From Cohaesibacter gelatinilyticus (GTDB lineage Bacteria; Pseudomonadota; Alphaproteobacteria; Rhizobiales; Cohaesibacteraceae): a stretch of 64,000 nt of DNA. Under the pieces are notes generated by a model that worked only from the letters and a program-made list of their open reading frames with translations, ran no database searches and was not told where the DNA came from. Below, one piece after another: positions 4,352 through 45,256 of this stretch (its first letter is position 1; the number at the start of each line of letters is the position of its first letter). The stretch is taken from assembly GCF_900215605.1 (NCBI RefSeq), contig NZ_OBEL01000001.1:248001-312000 (forward strand). The letters are read 5' to 3'. The position numbers were made by a program, and so were the translations under genes.

Positions 4352-6196
4352 TCAGCCGTTGTCTTTGCCACCCTTGCCACGATGAGGCTTCTTGCCGCCT
4401 TTGGGGCCATCCTTACGATAGCCATCCTTGCGGAAGCCGCCTTTGCGGTCGCCATCGCGACGATCACCATCTTTCCTGAAACCGCCTTTGCGATCACCAC
4501 GTGGACCGCCACGGCCACCAGGCTTACCACCGCGTGGGCCGCCACGACCCTCAGCACGACCACCACCGCCGCCGCGCGGACCGGAAACTTCCTTCGGACG
4601 CTCGGCCAATTTGACGATACGAAGGCTTTTTTCCCCTGTACCTTCAGTCTCGGTTACGTCCTGGAAGTTGCCAGCAACATCGCCCGAAAGCTCGAATACG
4701 GTCTCGCTATCGAGAATACGGATGAAACCAACTTTGCGTTTGGTGAAGCCACCGATCCGGCAGATCATGGGCAGCAGCCAACGCGGCTCCGCATTATGTT
4801 TGCGACCAGCATTCAGACGGAACCAGACGCCATCGTCGAAATCAGAACGCTCGCGTCCCGGCTTCTTGTCGTCAAAGCTGCCGCCGGTATCCAGAATTTC
4901 TTCAGGTGCTGGACGCATTGATTGCTGGCTGGCAATGAAGGCGGCGGCAATTTGCTCAGGACCGTAAAGCGCCAGAAGACTTTCTGCTGCTTGCAATGCG
5001 TCGCCGGTTGGAGTGACCTGCAAATGCTCATTGGCGAAAATGCGCTCCTGGTCCTTGGCTTGAATGTCACCTGTGCTAGGAACGGATCCCCAATTGACGC
5101 GTAGTTTGGCAAATTTCAGCAGCCGATTGACAACATGGCGTTTGTTCGTTGGTGCAATCAACACACAGGTGCCCTTGCGTCCTGCGCGGCCGGTCCGACC
5201 CGAGCGGTGCAACAAGGTGTCACTGTTGGTAGGAAGATCGGCGTGGATAACCAAATCCAGATTTGGCAGATCAATACCGCGTGCGGCCACATCGGTTGCC
5301 ACACAGACACGGGCTCGGCCATCGCGCATCGCTTGCAATGCTTGCGAGCGTTCTGCCTGACTCAGTTCACCCGATAGAGACACCACACCAAAGCCACGGT
5401 TGGACAGGCGAGACGTCAGATGGCGCACCATTTCGCGAGTGGAGCAAAATACCATCGTGCTTTGCGCTTCATAATAACGCAAAACATTGATGACTGCCTT
5501 TTCCTTGTCGCGGGAATTGACCAGATGGGCGTGATATTCAATATCGCTATGCTGCTCGCGTTCTTCTGCTGTGCTGATGCGAAGGGCATCGCGCTGATAG
5601 GTCTTGGCGAGGAAGGCAATCTGTTTCGGTACCGTTGCAGAGAACAAAAGTGTTTGACGCTCATCCGGTGCAGCGCCGAGGATGAATTCCAGATCTTCAC
5701 GGAAGCCTAGATCCAGCATCTCATCGGCTTCGTCGAGCACAGCGGCGCGCAACCAGGTCATGTCGAGCGAACCACGCTCAATATGGTCGCGAAGGCGGCC
5801 CGGTGTGCCGACGACGATATGAGCGCCGGCTGACAGGTCGCGGCGTTCACGACGCATGTCCATACCGCCAACACAGCTGGCAATATGCGCACCACAATCG
5901 GCATAGAGCCAAGTCAGTTCTGCTTTAACCTGCAGGGCAAGTTCGCGGGTTGGAGCAATAACCAGCGCCAGAGGTTCAGCAGCTTTGGAGAGCCGACCAC
6001 CGTCAGCCAGAAGGCCATTGGCCATGGCCAGACCGAAGGCAACAGTTTTACCTGATCCAGTCTGGGCGGATACCAGCAAATCGCGTTGTCCTGCGTCAGC
6101 ATCCAGAATTGCGGTCTGGACTGGTGTCAGGCTTTCATAGCCACGATTGCTAAGGGCAGCAGCCAAGGATGGATGCACGGCATTATGCAAGGTCAT
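4352..6196 (-). CDS. DEAD-box ATP-dependent RNA helicase with RGG-rich tail
   Basis: Unwinds structured RNA using ATP, in ribosome assembly or RNA turnover. The 614-residue protein carries the full motif set: Q motif (SLTPVQTAI), motif I AQTGSGKT (44-51), Ia PTRELA, motif II DEAD within VLDEADEMLDLGF, motif III SAT, and motif VI HRSGRTGRAGRKG. A DbpA-type RNA-binding domain follows (around WLLPMICRIGGFTKRKVG), then a roughly 80-residue tail of G, R, K and D repeats (about 530-614). The tail is built of repeated RKDGDRRDGDRKGGF-like units, which is why several long antisense frames are open here. It resembles CsdA/DbpA-type helicases of rhizobia; which one it is cannot be settled by eye. Confidence 0.94.
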   Translation of the reverse strand: MTLHNAVHPSLAAALSNRGYESLTPVQTAILDADAGQRDLLVSAQTGSGKTVAFGLAMANGLLADGGRLSKAAEPLALVIAPTRELALQVKAELTWLYADCGAHIASCVGGMDMRRERRDLSAGAHIVVGTPGRLRDHIERGSLDMTWLRAAVLDEADEMLDLGFREDLEFILGAAPDERQTLLFSATVPKQIAFLAKTYQRDALRISTAEEREQHSDIEYHAHLVNSRDKEKAVINVLRYYEAQSTMVFCSTREMVRHLTSRLSNRGFGVVSLSGELSQAERSQALQAMRDGRARVCVATDVAARGIDLPNLDLVIHADLPTNSDTLLHRSGRTGRAGRKGTCVLIAPTNKRHVVNRLLKFAKLRVNWGSVPSTGDIQAKDQERIFANEHLQVTPTGDALQAAESLLALYGPEQIAAAFIASQQSMRPAPEEILDTGGSFDDKKPGRERSDFDDGVWFRLNAGRKHNAEPRWLLPMICRIGGFTKRKVGFIRILDSETVFELSGDVAGNFQDVTETEGTGEKSLRIVKLAERPKEVSGPRGGGGGRAEGRGGPRGGKPGGRGGPRGDRKGGFRKDGDRRDGDRKGGFRKDGYRKDGPKGGKKPHRGKGGKDNG

Positions 6197-10677: not shown

Positions 10678-10847
10678 GGATTAGTTAGGGCTAATCCGTG
10701 ACGGACGATAATCAAGCGCAAAGCGCGCTCTCGCAGTTATCGTGGAAAAAGAAATCGAGCATGAAATCCTTCATGCTCGGGAGCCGATAGGCGACCGGGC
10801 TGTATAGCCCGGGCCTTCGCAGCGCCGCAGCTTTGCTGCGAATAGCG
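10678..10847. repeat. Cassette of consecutive hairpins, relative of the 105-bp array unit
   Basis: Between the dioxygenase and tldD lie, in order: GGATTAG/CTAATCC (10678-10698), an outer CGATAA/TTATCG (about 10707-10743), GAGCATGA/TCATGCTC (10757-10778), CCGGGCT/AGCCCGG (10795-10812) and CGCAGC/GCTGCG (10826-10840). The linker GGAGCCGATAGGCGACCGG (10780-10798) almost equals the linker of the array at 21848-22292, and the order of stems is the same, though the stem sequences differ. Confidence 0.75.
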
Positions 10848-10858
10848 CGTCAGAAATA

Positions 10859-12331
10859 TCAAGTCGCCGTGCCGCCAACAGTAATGCCATCAATGCGCAA
10901 AGTTGGTTGCCCAACGCCTACTGGAACGCCTTGGCCTTGCTTGCCACAGGTACCAATGCCGGTATCCAATTGCATGTCGTTGCCGATCATGGAAATGCGC
11001 TTCATGGCTTCCGGGCCATTGCCGATGAGGGTGGCACCTTTCACCGGAGCGGTGACCTTGCCATCTTCAATCAAATAGGCTTCGGTGCAGGAAAAGACGA
11101 ATTTGCCTGAGGTGATATCCACCTGACCACCGCCGAAATTCACCGCATAAAGCCCATTTCTGACGGATTTCAGGATCTCTGCCGGATCATGATCACCGCT
11201 TTCCATGATGGTGTTGGTCATGCGTGGCATTGGAATATGGGCATAGGACTGGCGACGACCATTACCTGTGCTGTTCACACCCATCAATCGCGCATTCTGG
11301 CGGTCCTGCATATAGCCGACGAGAACACCATCTTCGATCAGTGGCGTGCGTTGGGTCGGCGTGCCTTCATCATCGAAGGAAAGCGATCCACGACGACCAT
11401 CAATGGTACCATCATCCACCACTGTGACGCCCTTGGCAGCCACTTGCTGGCCCATGAGTTCGGCAAAGGCTGAGCTTTTCTTGCGATTGAAATCACCTTC
11501 CAGACCATGACCGACGGCTTCGTGAAGCAGAACGCCAGGCCAGCCCGGCCCAAGCACGACATCCAATTCACCCGCAGGCGCGTCAATAGCTTCCAGATTG
11601 ACCAGAGCCTGACGCAGAGCTTCGTCGGTGGCACCCTGCCAGCCACCATCAATTCCACCGTTCAGATAATAGCTATAACCATGCCGACCACCAAAGCCGT
11701 GACTTCCCGCTTCCTGACGGTCTCCTTCACCGACCACGACACTGACATTGACGCGCACCAGAGGGCGGACATCATGGAATATCTGCCCATCGGCGCGAAG
11801 GATAGCAATCTTGCGCCAGCTACCTGCCAATGAGGCTGAAACCTGCCGAACGCGGTTATCCTTATCGCGAGCATATTGGTTGATTTCTTCCAGCAGAGAA
11901 ATCTTCTCTGCAAGGCTCATGTCATCGACAGGATTGAGGTCGCCATAGAGCCGGCGATTGGTTTGTTGTGGTGCTTCTGCAGTAACACCACTATAACCTT
12001 CTCCAACGGAAGAAACGGCATCACTGGCACGCTTCAGCGCTTCAATGGAAAGCTCCCCGGAATGGGCATAGCCAGCGGCCTCACCAGCGACAGAGCGCAT
12101 GCCAAAGCCCTGACTGCTGTCAAAACTGGAGCTTTTCAATCGGCCATTGTCGAAAACCAGACCTTCAGATTGGGATTGCTCAAAGAACAGCTCACCATCA
12201 TCGGCATTGCTGAGCGTATCGGCCAGAAGCTTGCACACACTCTCCCGATCCAGTCCATGGGCCTCGAGCAAGTCACCGCTGTCAGTTGAATTGAGAGCTG
12301 CATCAAGAGGCTGATTATCTGTGTTGGTCAT
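10859..12331 (-). CDS. tldD: Metalloprotease TldD
   Basis: TldD and its partner TldE/PmbA form a zinc protease that degrades unfolded peptides and matures modified peptides such as microcin B17; it is cytoplasmic. The metal-binding HEAVGHGLEGD motif is present after VVLGPGWPGVLL, followed by the conserved DDEGTPTQRTPLIEDGVLVGYM and the C-terminal GNGPEAMKRISMIGNDMQLDTG with GTCGKQGQGVPVGVGQPTLRI. Using the ATG at 12329-12331 the product is 490 residues, near the family length; an open extension to 12418 would add 29 dissimilar residues and has no good ribosome binding site. It is divergent from mutY. No pmbA is in the window. Confidence 0.95.
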   Translation of the reverse strand: MTNTDNQPLDAALNSTDSGDLLEAHGLDRESVCKLLADTLSNADDGELFFEQSQSEGLVFDNGRLKSSSFDSSQGFGMRSVAGEAAGYAHSGELSIEALKRASDAVSSVGEGYSGVTAEAPQQTNRRLYGDLNPVDDMSLAEKISLLEEINQYARDKDNRVRQVSASLAGSWRKIAILRADGQIFHDVRPLVRVNVSVVVGEGDRQEAGSHGFGGRHGYSYYLNGGIDGGWQGATDEALRQALVNLEAIDAPAGELDVVLGPGWPGVLLHEAVGHGLEGDFNRKKSSAFAELMGQQVAAKGVTVVDDGTIDGRRGSLSFDDEGTPTQRTPLIEDGVLVGYMQDRQNARLMGVNSTGNGRRQSYAHIPMPRMTNTIMESGDHDPAEILKSVRNGLYAVNFGGGQVDITSGKFVFSCTEAYLIEDGKVTAPVKGATLIGNGPEAMKRISMIGNDMQLDTGIGTCGKQGQGVPVGVGQPTLRIDGITVGGTAT

Positions 12332-21109: not shown

Positions 21110-21757
21110 ATGGCAATTTCACGTAGAGAGTTTCTGGCCTCCGCATCAGCTTTAGCTGCAGGGTTTGCTGCCGTCACTGCCTTGCCGGTATCAGCATTTG
21201 CTGCTGATAAAGTCGATATGGATGAAGTGCTCAAGGAAGGCGCTTTGCCAGACAAGATTCAGGGTGCAGCCGATGCTCCTGTGACCATGGTTGAATATTC
21301 TTCCCTGACTTGCCCGCATTGCGCAGCCTTTCACAACTCCACCTACGCAGAGGTGAAGAAGAAATATATCGATACCGGCAAGATCCGCTATATCACCCGT
21401 GAGTTCCCACTGGATCCATTGGCAGCCGGTGGTGCGATGCTAGCGCGTTGCGCGCCGAACGATAATTTCCATGCAATGAATGATTTGTTGTTCGAAACCC
21501 AGCGTACTTGGGCTGCCAGCCCGAATCCGGTCGATGCTCTCCTAAAGCTTGCCAAGCAGGTTGGTTTTACACAGGACGGCTTTACCAAATGCCTGCAGGA
21601 TCAAAAGTTGCTGGATAATATCCGTGCGGTCAGCCAACGTGGTAGTGAGAAATTCGGTATTGATTCAACGCCATCTTTCATTATCAATGGCGAACTGCAT
21701 CGCGGGGCACTTTCTATTGAGGACATCGACAAAATCGTTGCTCCCCTTATCAAATAA
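21110..21757 (+). CDS. Tat-exported DsbA-family thiol:disulfide oxidoreductase
   Basis: A 215-residue periplasmic oxidoreductase. The N-terminus has a twin-arginine signal (SRREFLA, then an alanine-rich segment to SAFAADK). The thioredoxin fold contains the active site CPHC within VEYSSLTCPHCAAFH, and the cis-Pro loop GIDSTPSFIINGE. The family (DsbA/27 kDa outer-membrane-protein-like, thioredoxin_4) acts in disulfide formation or isomerisation. AGAAGGGA lies shortly before the ATG. A good terminator follows at 21790, so it is not simply co-transcribed with smc. Confidence 0.92.
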   Translation: MAISRREFLASASALAAGFAAVTALPVSAFAADKVDMDEVLKEGALPDKIQGAADAPVTMVEYSSLTCPHCAAFHNSTYAEVKKKYIDTGKIRYITREFPLDPLAAGGAMLARCAPNDNFHAMNDLLFETQRTWAASPNPVDALLKLAKQVGFTQDGFTKCLQDQKLLDNIRAVSQRGSEKFGIDSTPSFIINGELHRGALSIEDIDKIVAPLIK

Positions 21758-21789
21758 AATTTGGTTGCGGCCCGTGACCGGACATGAAC

Positions 21790-21822
21790 AAGCGCGCTCC
21801 CTCATGGGAGGGCGCTTTTCTT
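21790..21822 (+). terminator. Rho-independent terminator of the dsbA-like gene
   Basis: Arms AAGCGCGCTCCC / GGGAGGGCGCTT (21790-21801 / 21806-21817, one mismatch) with a TCAT loop, followed by TTCTTAT. Confidence 0.85.
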
Positions 21823-21847
21823 ATATTCGCTCTCAACCCATCGTTTC

Positions 21848-22292
21848 ACAGCGACAACTGACTGTGAGCGATAACAATCGGGCACAGATATCCTGTGCCC
21901 GGGAACCGATAGGTGACCGGCGTTTTTACGCCGCGCCCGCGCAGGCTGTCGCACAGCGGCAAATAGCCGTGAGCGATAGCAATCGGGTACAGATATCCTG
22001 TGCCCGGGAACCGATAGGTGACCGGCGTTTTTACGCCGCGCCCGCGCAGGCTGTCGCACAGCGACAAATAGCCGTGAGCGATAGCAATCGGGTACAGATA
22101 TCCTGTGCCCGGGAACCGATAGGTGACCGGCGTTTTTACGCCGCGCCCGCGCAGGCTGTCGCACAGCGGCAAATAGCCGTGAGCGATAGCAATCGGGTAC
22201 AGATATCCTGTGCCCGGGAACCGATAGGTGACCGGCGTTTTTACGCCGCGCCCGCGCAGGCTGTCGCACAGCGACAAATAGCCGTGAGCGAT
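21848..22292. repeat. Tandem array of 105-bp hairpin units (about 4.2 copies)
   Basis: The word GGGAACCGATAGGTGACCGG recurs at 21901, 22006, 22111 and 22216, an exact 105-base period. Copies are nearly identical; differences such as GGGCACAG/GGGTACAG and CAGCGGC/CAGCGAC alternate. Each unit contains a stem GGG(C/T)ACAG / CTGTGCCC, a stem CGGCGT / ACGCCG with a TTTT loop, GCTGT/ACAGC, and CGGC/GCCG. Because 105 is a multiple of three, long frames stay open on both strands, but they are repeats and not genes. There are no spacers, so it is not CRISPR. It fills the space between the dsbA-like terminator and smc. Confidence 0.95.
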
Positions 22293-22298
22293 AAAAAT

Positions 22299-22314
22299 GG
22301 CAGGAGTACCTGCC
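22299..22314 (+). promoter_or_regulatory. Hairpin enclosing the smc ribosome binding site
   Basis: GGCAGG / CCTGCC with an AGTA loop lies one base before the smc ATG. The Shine-Dalgarno AGGAG (22302-22306) is inside the stem and loop, so folding would hide it. Confidence 0.7.
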
Positions 22315-22315
22315 A

Positions 22316-25300
22316 ATGAAGTTCGTCAAATTGCGCCTTTTGGGGTTCAAGAGCTTTGTTGAACCCATGGATTTCCTGATTGAACCGGGTCTTACTGGTG
22401 TGGTCGGACCCAATGGCTGCGGCAAATCCAATCTGGTGGAAGCTCTTCGCTGGGTGATGGGGGAAAACAGTTACAAGAATATGCGTGCGTCCGGTATGGA
22501 TGATGTGATCTTTGCTGGCTCTACCCATCGACCCGCGCGCAATACCGCGGAAGTGACCGTTTATCTGGACAATGCTGATCGCACGGCACCCGCTGGTTTC
22601 AATGACACGGACGATCTGGAAGTCTCGCGCCGTATTGAGCGTGAAAGCGGCTCCAATTACAAGATCAATGGCAAGGATGTACGAGCAAGAGACGTACAAT
22701 TGCTCTTTGCCGATGCTTCGACCGGCGCCCGTTCTCCTTCTCTGGTTGGTCAGGGCCGAATCGGTGAAATCATCAGTCAGAAGCCAACGCAACGTCGTGG
22801 ACTATTGGAAGAAGCTGCCGGTATTTCCGGTTTGCATTCGCGTCGTCATGAAGCTGAACTGCGTCTGAGAGCAACCGAGACCAATCTCGAGCGCCTAGAA
22901 GATGTCATGGCACAGATTGCCAGTCAGCTCGATGGTTTGAAACGTCAGGCCCGGCAAGCTAGCCGTTATCGTAATCTGTCCTCGGAAATCAGAAAGCTGG
23001 AAGCCACCCTCTATCACTTGCGTTGGCAAGAGACCAAGGACAAGGAAGAAGAGGCAAGAGGAGAGCTGCGCAAGGCTGATCTTGCAGTAGCCGAGGCGAC
23101 GTCCATCCAGGCTCAAACAGCAAAAGATGAGGCATTGGCCGCGCATGTCTTACCTGAGTTGCGAGACGAACAAGCTGCAAAAGCAGCCAGTATGCAGCGG
23201 TTGACGCTGGCAAAGAATGAGCTGGACCAATCAGAACAACGCGTCCGTGAAAAGCTTGCTGATCTGGACAGACGAATTGAACAAATCAAAGCCGATACTG
23301 CTCGTGAGCAGAAATTGATTGATGAAAATACCACCATCCTCAAAACTCTGAATGATGAAGAAGCTGCTTTGAAAACCGAAGAAGCTGCGTCCGAAGAAAC
23401 AGCGCAAAAGGCAGCAAGTGATCTCTCAGATCTTGAGAAGTTGCTCAGCAAGGCTGAGAGCGAAGCCTCTGGCCTCGTTGCGAAATTGGCGGAAGCACAG
23501 GGCACCGAACGCCAGCTTCAGCAAGCAGTACAATCAGCTCAAAGCCGCAAGGACAAGTTGAATCAGCAAATGCAATCTTGCGAACGGGATTTGGCTCAAG
23601 TAATTGAAAAGCTGGAACGTGACGCTGGACTGAATGAGAAACGCGCAGCAATCGAACTGGCCAAGACAAACTTGGAGCAAGCCGAACAGATAGCCGAGCA
23701 GGCAACTGCAAAGGTGGGGGCGGGACGCGACGCCGAGACGAAAGCTCGCCGTGCCCGCGCTGAAGCCGAAAGCATTTTCAATCGGCTGGATACCGAAGCC
23801 AAAACTCTGTCCAAAGTCGTCAATGCAGGTCGAGATGCTCGCTTTCCACCAATCCTTGATAGTTTGAAAGTCGATGCTGGCTTCGAGACAGCCCTCGGCG
23901 TTGCTTTAGGTGATGATCTTGATGCGCCCTTGAGCTCAGAAGCTGGTATCCACTGGGCAGACATGATCATACCTGAGAGTGATCAGGGGTTGCCTCATGA
24001 TCTACCAAGTCTCGCAGATCATGTCACAGGCCCGAACCGACTGACGCGACGTTTGAAACAGATTGGTTTGGTAAGCGAAGGCCATGGCGCAGGGCTGCAA
24101 AAGCAGTTGGCGCAGGGGCAAAGACTGGTAAGCCGTAAAGGTGATCTCTGGCGCTGGGACGGTCTCGTCATTCAAGCGGGAGCTCCAACTGCGGCAGCTC
24201 AACGATTGGAACAGCGTAATCGTTTGGAAGAGCTGGAAGCCAAGGTTGATGCGGCACGTGATGATCTCAACCACGCTCGCGCTGTCTTTAATGAAAAGCG
24301 CGAAGAGGTGGGCCATCTTGCCACGACAGAGCAGCGCGCCCGTGGTCAATGGCGAGATAGTCAGAAAAAGCTGTCGCAATTGCGGGATGAACTGGCAAGA
24401 GCCGAGCAGGCAGCCAATCAGTTGCTGGCTCGAAAAGCGTCTTTGGAGGAAACGGGCAAACGTTTGAAGGAAGATGGTCAGGAAGCCGATGAAGCTCTGA
24501 TCGAAGCACAAAAACAATTGACTGACTTGCCCGATCTATCCGAGCTTCAGATCGAACGTGATGAAGCGCGACTGTCACAAAGCGCAAAACGGGCAGAGGT
24601 GGCAGAAGCCCGTGCCTATGTGCAGGGTCTGACACGTGAAGGCGAGCTGCGTCAGCGTCGTTTGGCTGCAATTGAGCGGGAGCGCGAGAGTTGGGTAACC
24701 CGTGCCTCCAACGCTGATGATCAGATTTCTATTCTTCAAGGTCGACTGACACAGAATGAGGAAGAGCGCCGTTCCCTGCAGGAAGCGCCTGATGAAATTG
24801 AACAGCAGCGCCGCAGCCTGCTGAGCGAAATCGGCAAAGCTGAAGAAGCACAGAAGCAGGCCAGCGATAAGTTGGTGGAGGCAGAGCGAGCCGCTATGGA
24901 AGCAGACCACGCAGCCAAGAAGGCCCTGGAAGCTTTGGCTCAAGCGCGTGAAATCAAAGGTCGGACAGAAGAACGCTTGAACGGCATGATCAATCGCCGT
25001 TTGGATGTCGAGCGACTTATTGTTGAAACATTGGAATGCTCGCCTGCGGCAACTTTCGAACTTGCTCAGCTTAAACCTGGAGCACCGCTGCCAGCCATGC
25101 CAAGCGTGGAAGGGAAGCTGGACCGTCTGAAGAATGAGCGAGAGCGTTTGGGTGGTGTGAACCTGCGTGCAGATGAAGAAGCGACTGAGATTTCAGATCG
25201 ATTGACCGAAATGGAAACCGAGCGCGACGATCTTCTGGAAGCCGTCAAGAAATTGCGCACTGGCATTTTCAATATCAATAAGGAAGCGCGCGCACGCTTG

Positions 25301-25819
25301 TTGGCATCCTTTGATATTGTCAATGAACATTTCAAATCGCTCTTTTCCAAGCTCTTTGGTGGCGGTCAAGCGGAGCTTCAATTGACCGAAGCCGAAGATC
25401 CATTGCAAGCAGGTCTTGATATCATTGCCCGCCCTCCTGGTAAAAAACCGCAGACAATGACACTGCTTTCAGGTGGCGAGCAAGCTCTGACCGCAATGGC
25501 TCTGATCTTTGCTGTCTTCCTGACCAACCCGGCACCAATCTGTGTATTGGATGAGGTCGATGCGCCATTGGATGATGCCAATGTGGAGCGCTTCACACAT
25601 TTGCTGGAAGAAATGCGCAAATTGACGGACACCCGTTTTGTGACCATCACCCACAATCCGATCACCATGGCGCGTATGGATCGCCTGTTTGGTGTGACAA
25701 TGGCAGAACGCGGTATCTCACAGCTTGTATCGGTCAATCTTGAAATCGCAGAAGAGATGATACAGGAAGATGATGCCAAGGCCGTTTCATCCATTCCCCC
25801 CGGGCATCCCCATGTCTGA
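22316..25819 (+). CDS. smc: Chromosome segregation protein SMC
   Basis: SMC is the ATPase of the condensin complex with ScpA and ScpB; it organises and separates chromosomes. The 1167-residue protein has the full architecture: Walker A GPNGCGKSN (31-39), Q-loop region, a long coiled coil, a hinge at about 500-650 (LPHDLPSLADHV, GLVIQAGAP), a second coiled coil, the ABC signature LLSGGEQALTAMAL, and Walker B CVLDEVDAPLDD (Asp1079-Glu1080). The hinge is shorter than in Bacillus, as usual in alphaproteobacteria. The start follows a hairpin that contains the AGGAG, and a 105-bp repeat array precedes it. scpA and scpB are not in the window. Confidence 0.97.
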   Translation: MKFVKLRLLGFKSFVEPMDFLIEPGLTGVVGPNGCGKSNLVEALRWVMGENSYKNMRASGMDDVIFAGSTHRPARNTAEVTVYLDNADRTAPAGFNDTDDLEVSRRIERESGSNYKINGKDVRARDVQLLFADASTGARSPSLVGQGRIGEIISQKPTQRRGLLEEAAGISGLHSRRHEAELRLRATETNLERLEDVMAQIASQLDGLKRQARQASRYRNLSSEIRKLEATLYHLRWQETKDKEEEARGELRKADLAVAEATSIQAQTAKDEALAAHVLPELRDEQAAKAASMQRLTLAKNELDQSEQRVREKLADLDRRIEQIKADTAREQKLIDENTTILKTLNDEEAALKTEEAASEETAQKAASDLSDLEKLLSKAESEASGLVAKLAEAQGTERQLQQAVQSAQSRKDKLNQQMQSCERDLAQVIEKLERDAGLNEKRAAIELAKTNLEQAEQIAEQATAKVGAGRDAETKARRARAEAESIFNRLDTEAKTLSKVVNAGRDARFPPILDSLKVDAGFETALGVALGDDLDAPLSSEAGIHWADMIIPESDQGLPHDLPSLADHVTGPNRLTRRLKQIGLVSEGHGAGLQKQLAQGQRLVSRKGDLWRWDGLVIQAGAPTAAAQRLEQRNRLEELEAKVDAARDDLNHARAVFNEKREEVGHLATTEQRARGQWRDSQKKLSQLRDELARAEQAANQLLARKASLEETGKRLKEDGQEADEALIEAQKQLTDLPDLSELQIERDEARLSQSAKRAEVAEARAYVQGLTREGELRQRRLAAIERERESWVTRASNADDQISILQGRLTQNEEERRSLQEAPDEIEQQRRSLLSEIGKAEEAQKQASDKLVEAERAAMEADHAAKKALEALAQAREIKGRTEERLNGMINRRLDVERLIVETLECSPAATFELAQLKPGAPLPAMPSVEGKLDRLKNERERLGGVNLRADEEATEISDRLTEMETERDDLLEAVKKLRTGIFNINKEARARLLASFDIVNEHFKSLFSKLFGGGQAELQLTEAEDPLQAGLDIIARPPGKKPQTMTLLSGGEQALTAMALIFAVFLTNPAPICVLDEVDAPLDDANVERFTHLLEEMRKLTDTRFVTITHNPITMARMDRLFGVTMAERGISQLVSVNLEIAEEMIQEDDAKAVSSIPPGHPHV

Positions 25820-45090: not shown

Positions 45091-45169
45091 TACGTCCAGA
45101 TAATCTGGCCCAGTCATGCCTTCCGGCGTGTCCAAGTGATGTCGCCGTTTGGATCCTCGATGTCATAAG
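45091..45169 (-). pseudogene. Remnant copy of the ETF-QO gene end
   Basis: Matches the gene end at 45278-45357 along about 79 bases. On the minus strand it encodes DIEDPNGDITWT, against DIKDPNGNITWT in the intact gene, and then shifts frame to GMTGPDYLDVW, against GMGGPNYPNM. Confidence 0.75.
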
Positions 45170-45256
45170 ATACGCCATGATGCCGTGGCACCATGGCCAG
45201 CGTATCGACGAGAAAGATACGCCATGATGCCGTGGCATCATGACTAGCGTATCGAC
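45170..45256. repeat. Two tandem ~40-base palindromes
   Basis: Both copies start GATACGCCATGATGCCGTGG and end GCGTATCGAC. The second reads almost perfectly as its own reverse complement: GATACGC...CATGATGCC / GGCATCATG...GCGTATC. They lie exactly between the remnant and the intact ETF-QO end. Confidence 0.85.

Follow-up and report, generated by a model that had tools for sequence, protein, structure and literature searches.

The tandem repeats directly upstream of smc in Cohaesibacter gelatinilyticus are best explained as one unit that was multiplied in place, head to tail, and belongs to a dispersed family of multi-hairpin repeats, for which no earlier description was found. We assign a probability of about 0.6 to this reading, according to which the family is REPIN-like and non-autonomous and serves no function special to smc. 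The window analyzed here, to which all window coordinates refer, is a stretch of 64,000 nucleotides (contig NZ_OBEL01000001.1, positions 248,001 to 312,000, forward strand). Tandem Repeats Finder delimited within it an array of 447 bp (21847-22293) with a period of 105, 4.3 copies, 97% matches, and no indels, which confirmed the more than four near-identical 105-base units without spacers described in an earlier note that had been made from the sequence alone. The placement of the array between the terminator of a dsbA-like gene and smc held as well. The region contains the following features:

21110..21757, + strand: dsbA-like gene (Thioredoxin_4; Pfam)
21799..21812, + strand: terminator-like stem of the dsbA-like gene, 5' of the array
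21847..22293, + strand (smc direction): tandem array, 4.3 x 105 bp (Tandem Repeats Finder, unit differences, matches to model R1 at 21877, 21982, 22087, and 22192)
22299..22314, + strand: hairpin GGCAGG-AGTA-CCTGCC with the putative Shine-Dalgarno sequence or ribosome-binding site of smc (folds)
22316..25819, + strand: smc (open reading frame; Pfam SMC_N)

Units 2 and 4 of the array were identical, unit 3 was off at 1 of 105 sites, and unit 1 differed from the rest at 6 to 7 sites. The variable sites had been said to be few and to alternate between copies; they are indeed few, but only position 21854 alternates (A/G/A/G/A), and the remaining six are private to unit 1. The alternation at 21854 suggests that the last step in the growth of the array was the duplication of a 210-bp dimer. 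A single unit folded with -49.5 kcal/mol (z of -3.98 relative to shuffled sequences), and for the stretch 21847-22318 z reached -11.5.

Each unit follows the same plan: hairpin A, the joint GGGAACCGATAGGTGACC, hairpin B, the half stem CTCGCAGGC, hairpin C, and then GAATAGCCGTGAGAG, which pairs back with the half stem. In the second unit, these parts lie as follows:

21982..22085, + strand: full unit in the register of the model, with hairpins A, D, and B, outer stem, hairpin C, and tail (R1, 93.2 bits; alignment A1 and pair counts)
21984..22006, + strand: hairpin A of the second unit, CGGGTACAG-ATATC-CTGTGCCCG (fold)
22007..22023, + strand: conserved joint or small hairpin D, RCC-GNNA-GGY flanked by GA (helix 2, 98.7% of A1 cells paired)
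22024..22037, + strand: hairpin B, GGCGT-TTTT-ACGCC (helix 3, 98.5% of A1 cells paired)
22038..22080, + strand: 3' module, i.e., outer stem, hairpin C, and conserved tail AATAGCCGTGAGCG (helices 4 and 5, 79.8% and 89.7% of cells paired)

Alignment A1 was made with MAFFT from 26 units of four genomes, that is, 26 of 29 distinct full units (two of the four units of the array at locus L108 and one window unit were omitted, and left-type as well as insert-bearing units are not part of it). It was not fitted to structure, but 32 pairs in five helices were drawn on it. In A1, 86.8% of the cells were paired, compared to 70.1% in shuffled alignments and 34 to 44% after sliding. The covariation score of 0.463 (0.177 ± 0.013 in shuffles) was reached by none of 500 shuffles, which ignore the kinship of the rows and can be exceeded by related rows without structure. 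Two-sided changes occurred in 22 of the 32 pairs versus 18.0 in shuffles, 3 of 500 of which reached 22, and the number of further pair types was not above the shuffled level (50 versus 47.6; 101 of 500 shuffles reached it). At the D joint, with its GNNA loop, 16 rows had A-U as the first pair and 8 had G-C. Judged from folds and alignments, the unit is a structured element in which pairing appears to be kept by two-sided changes, including those between the smc copies of different species; the several stems per unit that had been claimed were thus borne out.

The family extends far beyond the array. R1, a model built from A1, yielded at least 63 matches in the C. gelatinilyticus genome at an E value of ≤1 and at least 59 at ≤0.001 (150 of 888 candidates scored); of the latter, 4 represent the array and 55 lie elsewhere. 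BLAST of the same genome returned 24 matches (E ≤ 10), five of them inside the array. The exact 16-base core AACCGATAGGTGACCG occurred 14 times (4 times in the array and ten times outside), and 23 occurrences were counted when up to 2 mismatches were allowed, compared to 10 for a reversed control. The statement that the units form an array nowhere else in the window has to be amended accordingly: the family is scattered genome-wide, and a further single unit is present in the window itself.

10754..10859, + strand: dispersed single unit between LigB-like and TldD/PmbA-like genes (R1, 80.9 bits; element at the same place in genomes G009 and G005)

At many loci in the genome, two units stand head to head and form an imperfect palindrome of ∼260 bp; the units of the smc array all point in one direction. 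For 60 of the 63 matches, gene context was determined, giving 34 clusters, 31 of which had both neighbors called. Thirteen of these 31 lay between convergent genes, 14 between genes of the same direction, and 4 between divergent genes, the smc array being one of the 4 by miscalling, since a spurious 76-aa open reading frame was taken instead of dsbA. The neighbors at five loci outside the array were unrelated to each other (LigB-like, TldD-like, an AsnC-type regulator, glyoxalase-II-like, DctP, a sigma-54 activator, and parts of an oligopeptide-type transporter). Scatter beside unrelated genes, which the earlier note had named as the observation that would speak against its reading, was largely what we found, both in this genome and in relatives, whose copies also lie beside other genes. 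Known RNA families were dropped as an explanation: no covariance model of Rfam matched at gathering level in the window, none matched at E ≤ 1 in 21760-22330, and none matched at gathering level at six loci of relatives. Nor was a description of the family found in the accessible parts of the literature on palindromic repeats of Alphaproteobacteria, on Cohaesibacter repeats, and on RIME/Bru-RS (coverage was mostly without subscription journals), and the sole occurrence of one of the family's sequence strings in this literature was in a text on Epstein-Barr virus.

At the smc locus, R1 detected units in three of the 19 genomes searched, 18 from the genus and one more from the bacterial family: four in C. 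gelatinilyticus (G000), three in G005, and one in G009. No R1 unit was found before smc in the other 15 of the 18 same-genus genomes. The three carriers form a clade in the smc tree (support of 98/96), and their smc arrays comprise about 1.25, 3.25, and 4.3 units. In each of them all units have the sense orientation, and 20 nt separate the end of the last R1 match from the start codon. Each array also opens with part of a unit, a tail of the same orientation, so that direct repeats able to feed slippage or unequal exchange flank even a lone unit. The sequences support the presence of a unit before smc already in the common ancestor of the three species and a change of copy number since then. 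Between G000 and G009, the smc unit differed at 36 of 103 aligned sites and smc itself at 52 of 96 fourfold sites, which makes some constraint on the unit likely; between G005 and G009, the unit differed as much as fourfold sites did (17/103 versus 17/101). When the last unit of the window was compared to the G009 unit without a structure-fitted alignment, two-sided changes were seen in 5 of the 15 pairs of D, B, and C and one-sided changes in none.

The constant orientation and distance to the start codon would also be expected if array and ribosome-binding-site hairpin were a dedicated leader that tunes Smc synthesis, and a hairpin over the Shine-Dalgarno sequence is present in all three species (those of G005 and G009, both array carriers, are similar to that at 22299-22314 but have different loop bases). 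Nevertheless, we consider this improbable. A leader specific to smc should be restricted to smc and occur in most relatives, but the same units stand beside unrelated genes, 15 of 18 same-genus genomes lack them before smc, and their number varies from 1 to 4. Moreover, no sigma-70-like promoter was found in 21700-22400 (other promoter types were outside the search). A smc-specific regulator was dropped for these reasons, i.e., copies elsewhere and none found in most of the genus, and the smc-specific or chromosome-organizing element proposed earlier on the basis of position is left without support; the absence of a role specific to smc is what we infer. Less probable still is a coding repeat, even though one plus-strand frame stays open across the array and has one common phase relative to smc in the smc arrays of G000, G005, and G009. 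This frame had no Pfam match (one of two minus-strand frames gave two matches below the cut-offs), and the 256-aa frame overlaps dsbA. In two other arrays of the family the units are spaced by 107, 108, and 109, which fits the earlier remark that the frames stay open by accident.

Being shared between species does not set the smc locus apart, since 6 of 10 element loci of G009 coincided in position with a G000 element and the remaining 4 did not, as called against the retrieved G000 stretches only (L280, a core-pattern match with no R1 match, does not enter these numbers). At one of the shared places two G009 contigs end, and the assembly appears to have broken inside that array. A composite element at ∼75 kb on contig C2 (L282 versus L113 and L273) had the opposite orientation in G005 from that in G000 and G009, as though it had been flipped between its inverted ends.

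In 18 unit comparisons at shared loci (alignment A4), 505 of 576 pair positions were judged; the other 71 were excluded, 51 of them for lack of pairing in the first row and 20 for a gap. Of the positions judged, 350 were unchanged, 115 had changed on both sides, 18 had changed on one side, and 22 were broken. Since A4 is structure-fitted and the comparisons are not independent, these counts are biased toward pairing; even so, double changes greatly outnumber single ones. Stems with compensatory changes usually count as proof that an RNA is functional. In this family, stems at shared loci change almost only as matched pairs, so that selection and template switching, in which one arm is copied from the other in a single event, can be separated by counting intermediates. 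Template switching has been proposed for RNA genes (PMC8794818). The paired stem changes seen here appear to fit template-switch copying of the arms as well as they fit selection. The excess of double changes would be explained more simply by template switching, as stepwise selection via G-U intermediates would leave more single changes. We infer that one hairpin arm may be recopied from the other in this way.

The same observations bear on the alternative that the family is an RNA element useful to the host, whose hairpins in transcripts shield 3' ends, terminate transcription, or serve as a protein-binding site, and which forms part of the smc 5' leader. This alternative, which we regard as possible but rather unlikely, draws on the covariation with conserved joints, on the recurrence of the 3' module across the order, and on persistence at shared loci between species in which 52 of 96 fourfold sites of smc are different. 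Copies also lie close to the 3' ends of genes and are rare between divergent ones, but palindromic repeats avoid promoters anyway. The high ratio of double to one-sided changes is not what selection via G-U intermediates favors, and no match was found in 14 of the 18 same-genus genomes (stricter filters, 64 candidates scored in each). A generic role compatible with a dispersed repeat may exist all the same, with units providing an mRNA 3'-end or leader structure for whichever gene adjoins them.

Family members were patchily distributed among relatives. Among 61 genomes (C. gelatinilyticus and 60 relatives), 17 had an R1 match at E ≤ 0.01; as 64 candidates were scored for most genomes, counts are lower bounds and absences are non-exhaustive. 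Four of the 18 same-genus genomes had matches (at least 58 in G000, 25 in G009, 18 in G005, and 2 in G017), and a tree built from 597 bases of smc places these four in one group (support of 89/86). Outside the genus, matches were weaker, with best E values per genome of ∼1e-10 to 1e-3, and had in common the hairpin order and above all the 3' module, the part of the unit most widely found there. Judged by these matches, weaker relatives of the family are patchy across the order. A scan of a wider contig collection for the 3' module returned at least 103 stretches, 80 of which were scored with R1; among the 80 titles listed, most were metagenome-assembled genomes or bins of Alphaproteobacteria, and pairs 99 to 132 nt apart recurred. 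Some 3'-module hits (Pseudomonas, Gluconobacter, Novosphingobium, and others) resembled an unrelated coding segment. By eye, sphingomonad copies (L178, L224, L233, L244, and L252) had a long inverted repeat immediately 5' of the conserved 3' module. Spread by phages was dropped, as the 3'-module pattern was present on one IMG/VR contig only, and so was spread by plasmids, as a search of 72,556 plasmid records with a G005 unit of 106 bases returned 6 partial hits, none covering 80% of the unit.

Distant members displayed a marked polarity of orientation. In G052, from another family of the order, 106 R1 matches (E ≤ 0.01) were located on contigs C1 to C8 (L351 to L370). On the seven contigs with at least four matches, which are up to 1.16 Mb long, 98 of 102 matches pointed the majority way of their contig. 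The sign of the T-A skew agreed with element direction in 20 of 20 stretches chosen around matches (19 of 20 kb and one of 17 kb). GC skew was clearly negative on C1 (7/7) and C2 (2/3) and ranged from -0.05 to 0.08 elsewhere, so that the two groups of contigs cannot be told apart by GC skew alone. The polarity is not explained by gene direction either: among 47 cases, the upstream gene had the direction of the element in 32 and the downstream gene in 24 (neighbors called with a simple ORF caller; 57 of the 106 matches were in retrieved stretches and 47 of these had clean neighbors). Going by skew, we take the direction in G052 to be probably coupled to replication. In G044, direction was uniform on all seven contigs with at least two matches (24 of 27 matches); several of these matches are neighboring pairs, which leaves fewer independent cases. 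In C. gelatinilyticus itself, orientation was mixed on C2, C5, and C9, mostly in inverted pairs, and all + at five loci on C1; G030 also had mixed orientation on many contigs, mostly in inverted pairs. The polarity is thus a property of distant members sharing mainly the 3' module and the general hairpin order, and not of Cohaesibacter.

No transposase or other mover was found with the elements. Co-changing arms and a one-way orientation that tracks strand composition point to single-stranded DNA; they come from different branches of the family, and neither is proof. In our reading, the family would be mobile, and folded single-stranded DNA at the replication fork would be the state in which it spreads and is remodeled. 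For a repeat with no known transposase, the strand polarity of the distant members makes such a replication-coupled single-strand route directly testable. Tentatively, one might go further and see in the family a widespread and undescribed class of alphaproteobacterial elements that live as folded single-stranded DNA at the fork, with a conserved 3' module, stems that vary freely but are kept paired by template switching from arm to arm, one-way orientation relative to replication in some lineages, inserts at hairpin B, and arrays that come to lie in the leaders of essential genes such as smc.

We read the family as a new REPIN/RIME-like structured repeat family that has been multiplied locally. 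REP sequences are short and conserved; in contrast to REPINs, the unit of the family is ∼105 nt long and has four hairpins with variable stems. The likeness lies in inverted doublets and tandem runs in intergenic space, which the family forms at many loci. REP/REPIN sequences with RAYT transposases are intergenic, exist in many copies, include inverted doublets that form a large hairpin as well as tandem runs, and are thought to move as single-stranded DNA (PMC3116915). A RAYT-driven REP was dropped, as presence of the family does not follow Y1_Tnp (the RAYT family; E ≤ 0.001), which gave no match in 10 of the 17 genomes with R1 matches, one of the ten (G005) being only 64% complete. RIME and the A/B/C motifs of rhizobia are described as intergenic repeated mosaics or palindromes of Alphaproteobacteria (PMC2573895, PMC2873474), with a function called unknown (PMC2573895). 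Bru-RS of Brucella, from the same order, is an intergenic stem-loop repeat of 103 to 105 bp (PMC2267715). As a ∼100-bp dispersed, intergenic, palindromic repeat in Hyphomicrobiales, the family resembles RIME and Bru-RS, the latter in size, stem-loops, intergenic position, and order, by description. In sequence, RIME may differ from the family; an indirect comparison, the search of plasmid records, gave no hit covering 80% of the G005 unit. IS200/IS605-type elements have secondary structures recognized at their ends and use the lagging-strand template as target (PMC6006769). Lagging-strand targeting would give a strand polarity like that of the distant family members; differences are that no transposase was found with the family and that polarity is limited to the distant members.

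Finally, a part of the copies carried inserts at the place of hairpin B. Among 54 own-genome matches examined, 15 were long copies (≥140 bases), and in all of these the extra stretch, a hairpin module of at least two kinds, lay between the D joint and the outer stem. A ∼50-base module, GACAAGATACGCC...GCGTATCGACAGGAAT, was present in 7 of the 15 by pattern and in three more by eye, and a second kind of insert, around CCCCGAAAAGTTGCAGACTTTTCGG, was assigned to five of the 15 by eye (8 of the 15 had no pattern match and were judged by eye). The flanks of the seven pattern-matched inserts still pair as arms of hairpin B in four cases and do not in three, and the sequences support insertion into this hairpin. 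Insert-bearing loci of the genome include L113 (7076-7230), L290 (4017-4170), and L114, and the G009 counterpart of one insert-bearing copy is without the insert. At 45167-45256 of the window, a 47-bp hairpin repeat, AAGATACGCC...GCGTATCGACGAGA, is present in about two tandem copies; by eye, it resembles the 50-base hairpin B module. Overlapping tandem repeats with periods of 15, 33, and 45, which are perhaps coding, were observed at 4394-4566.
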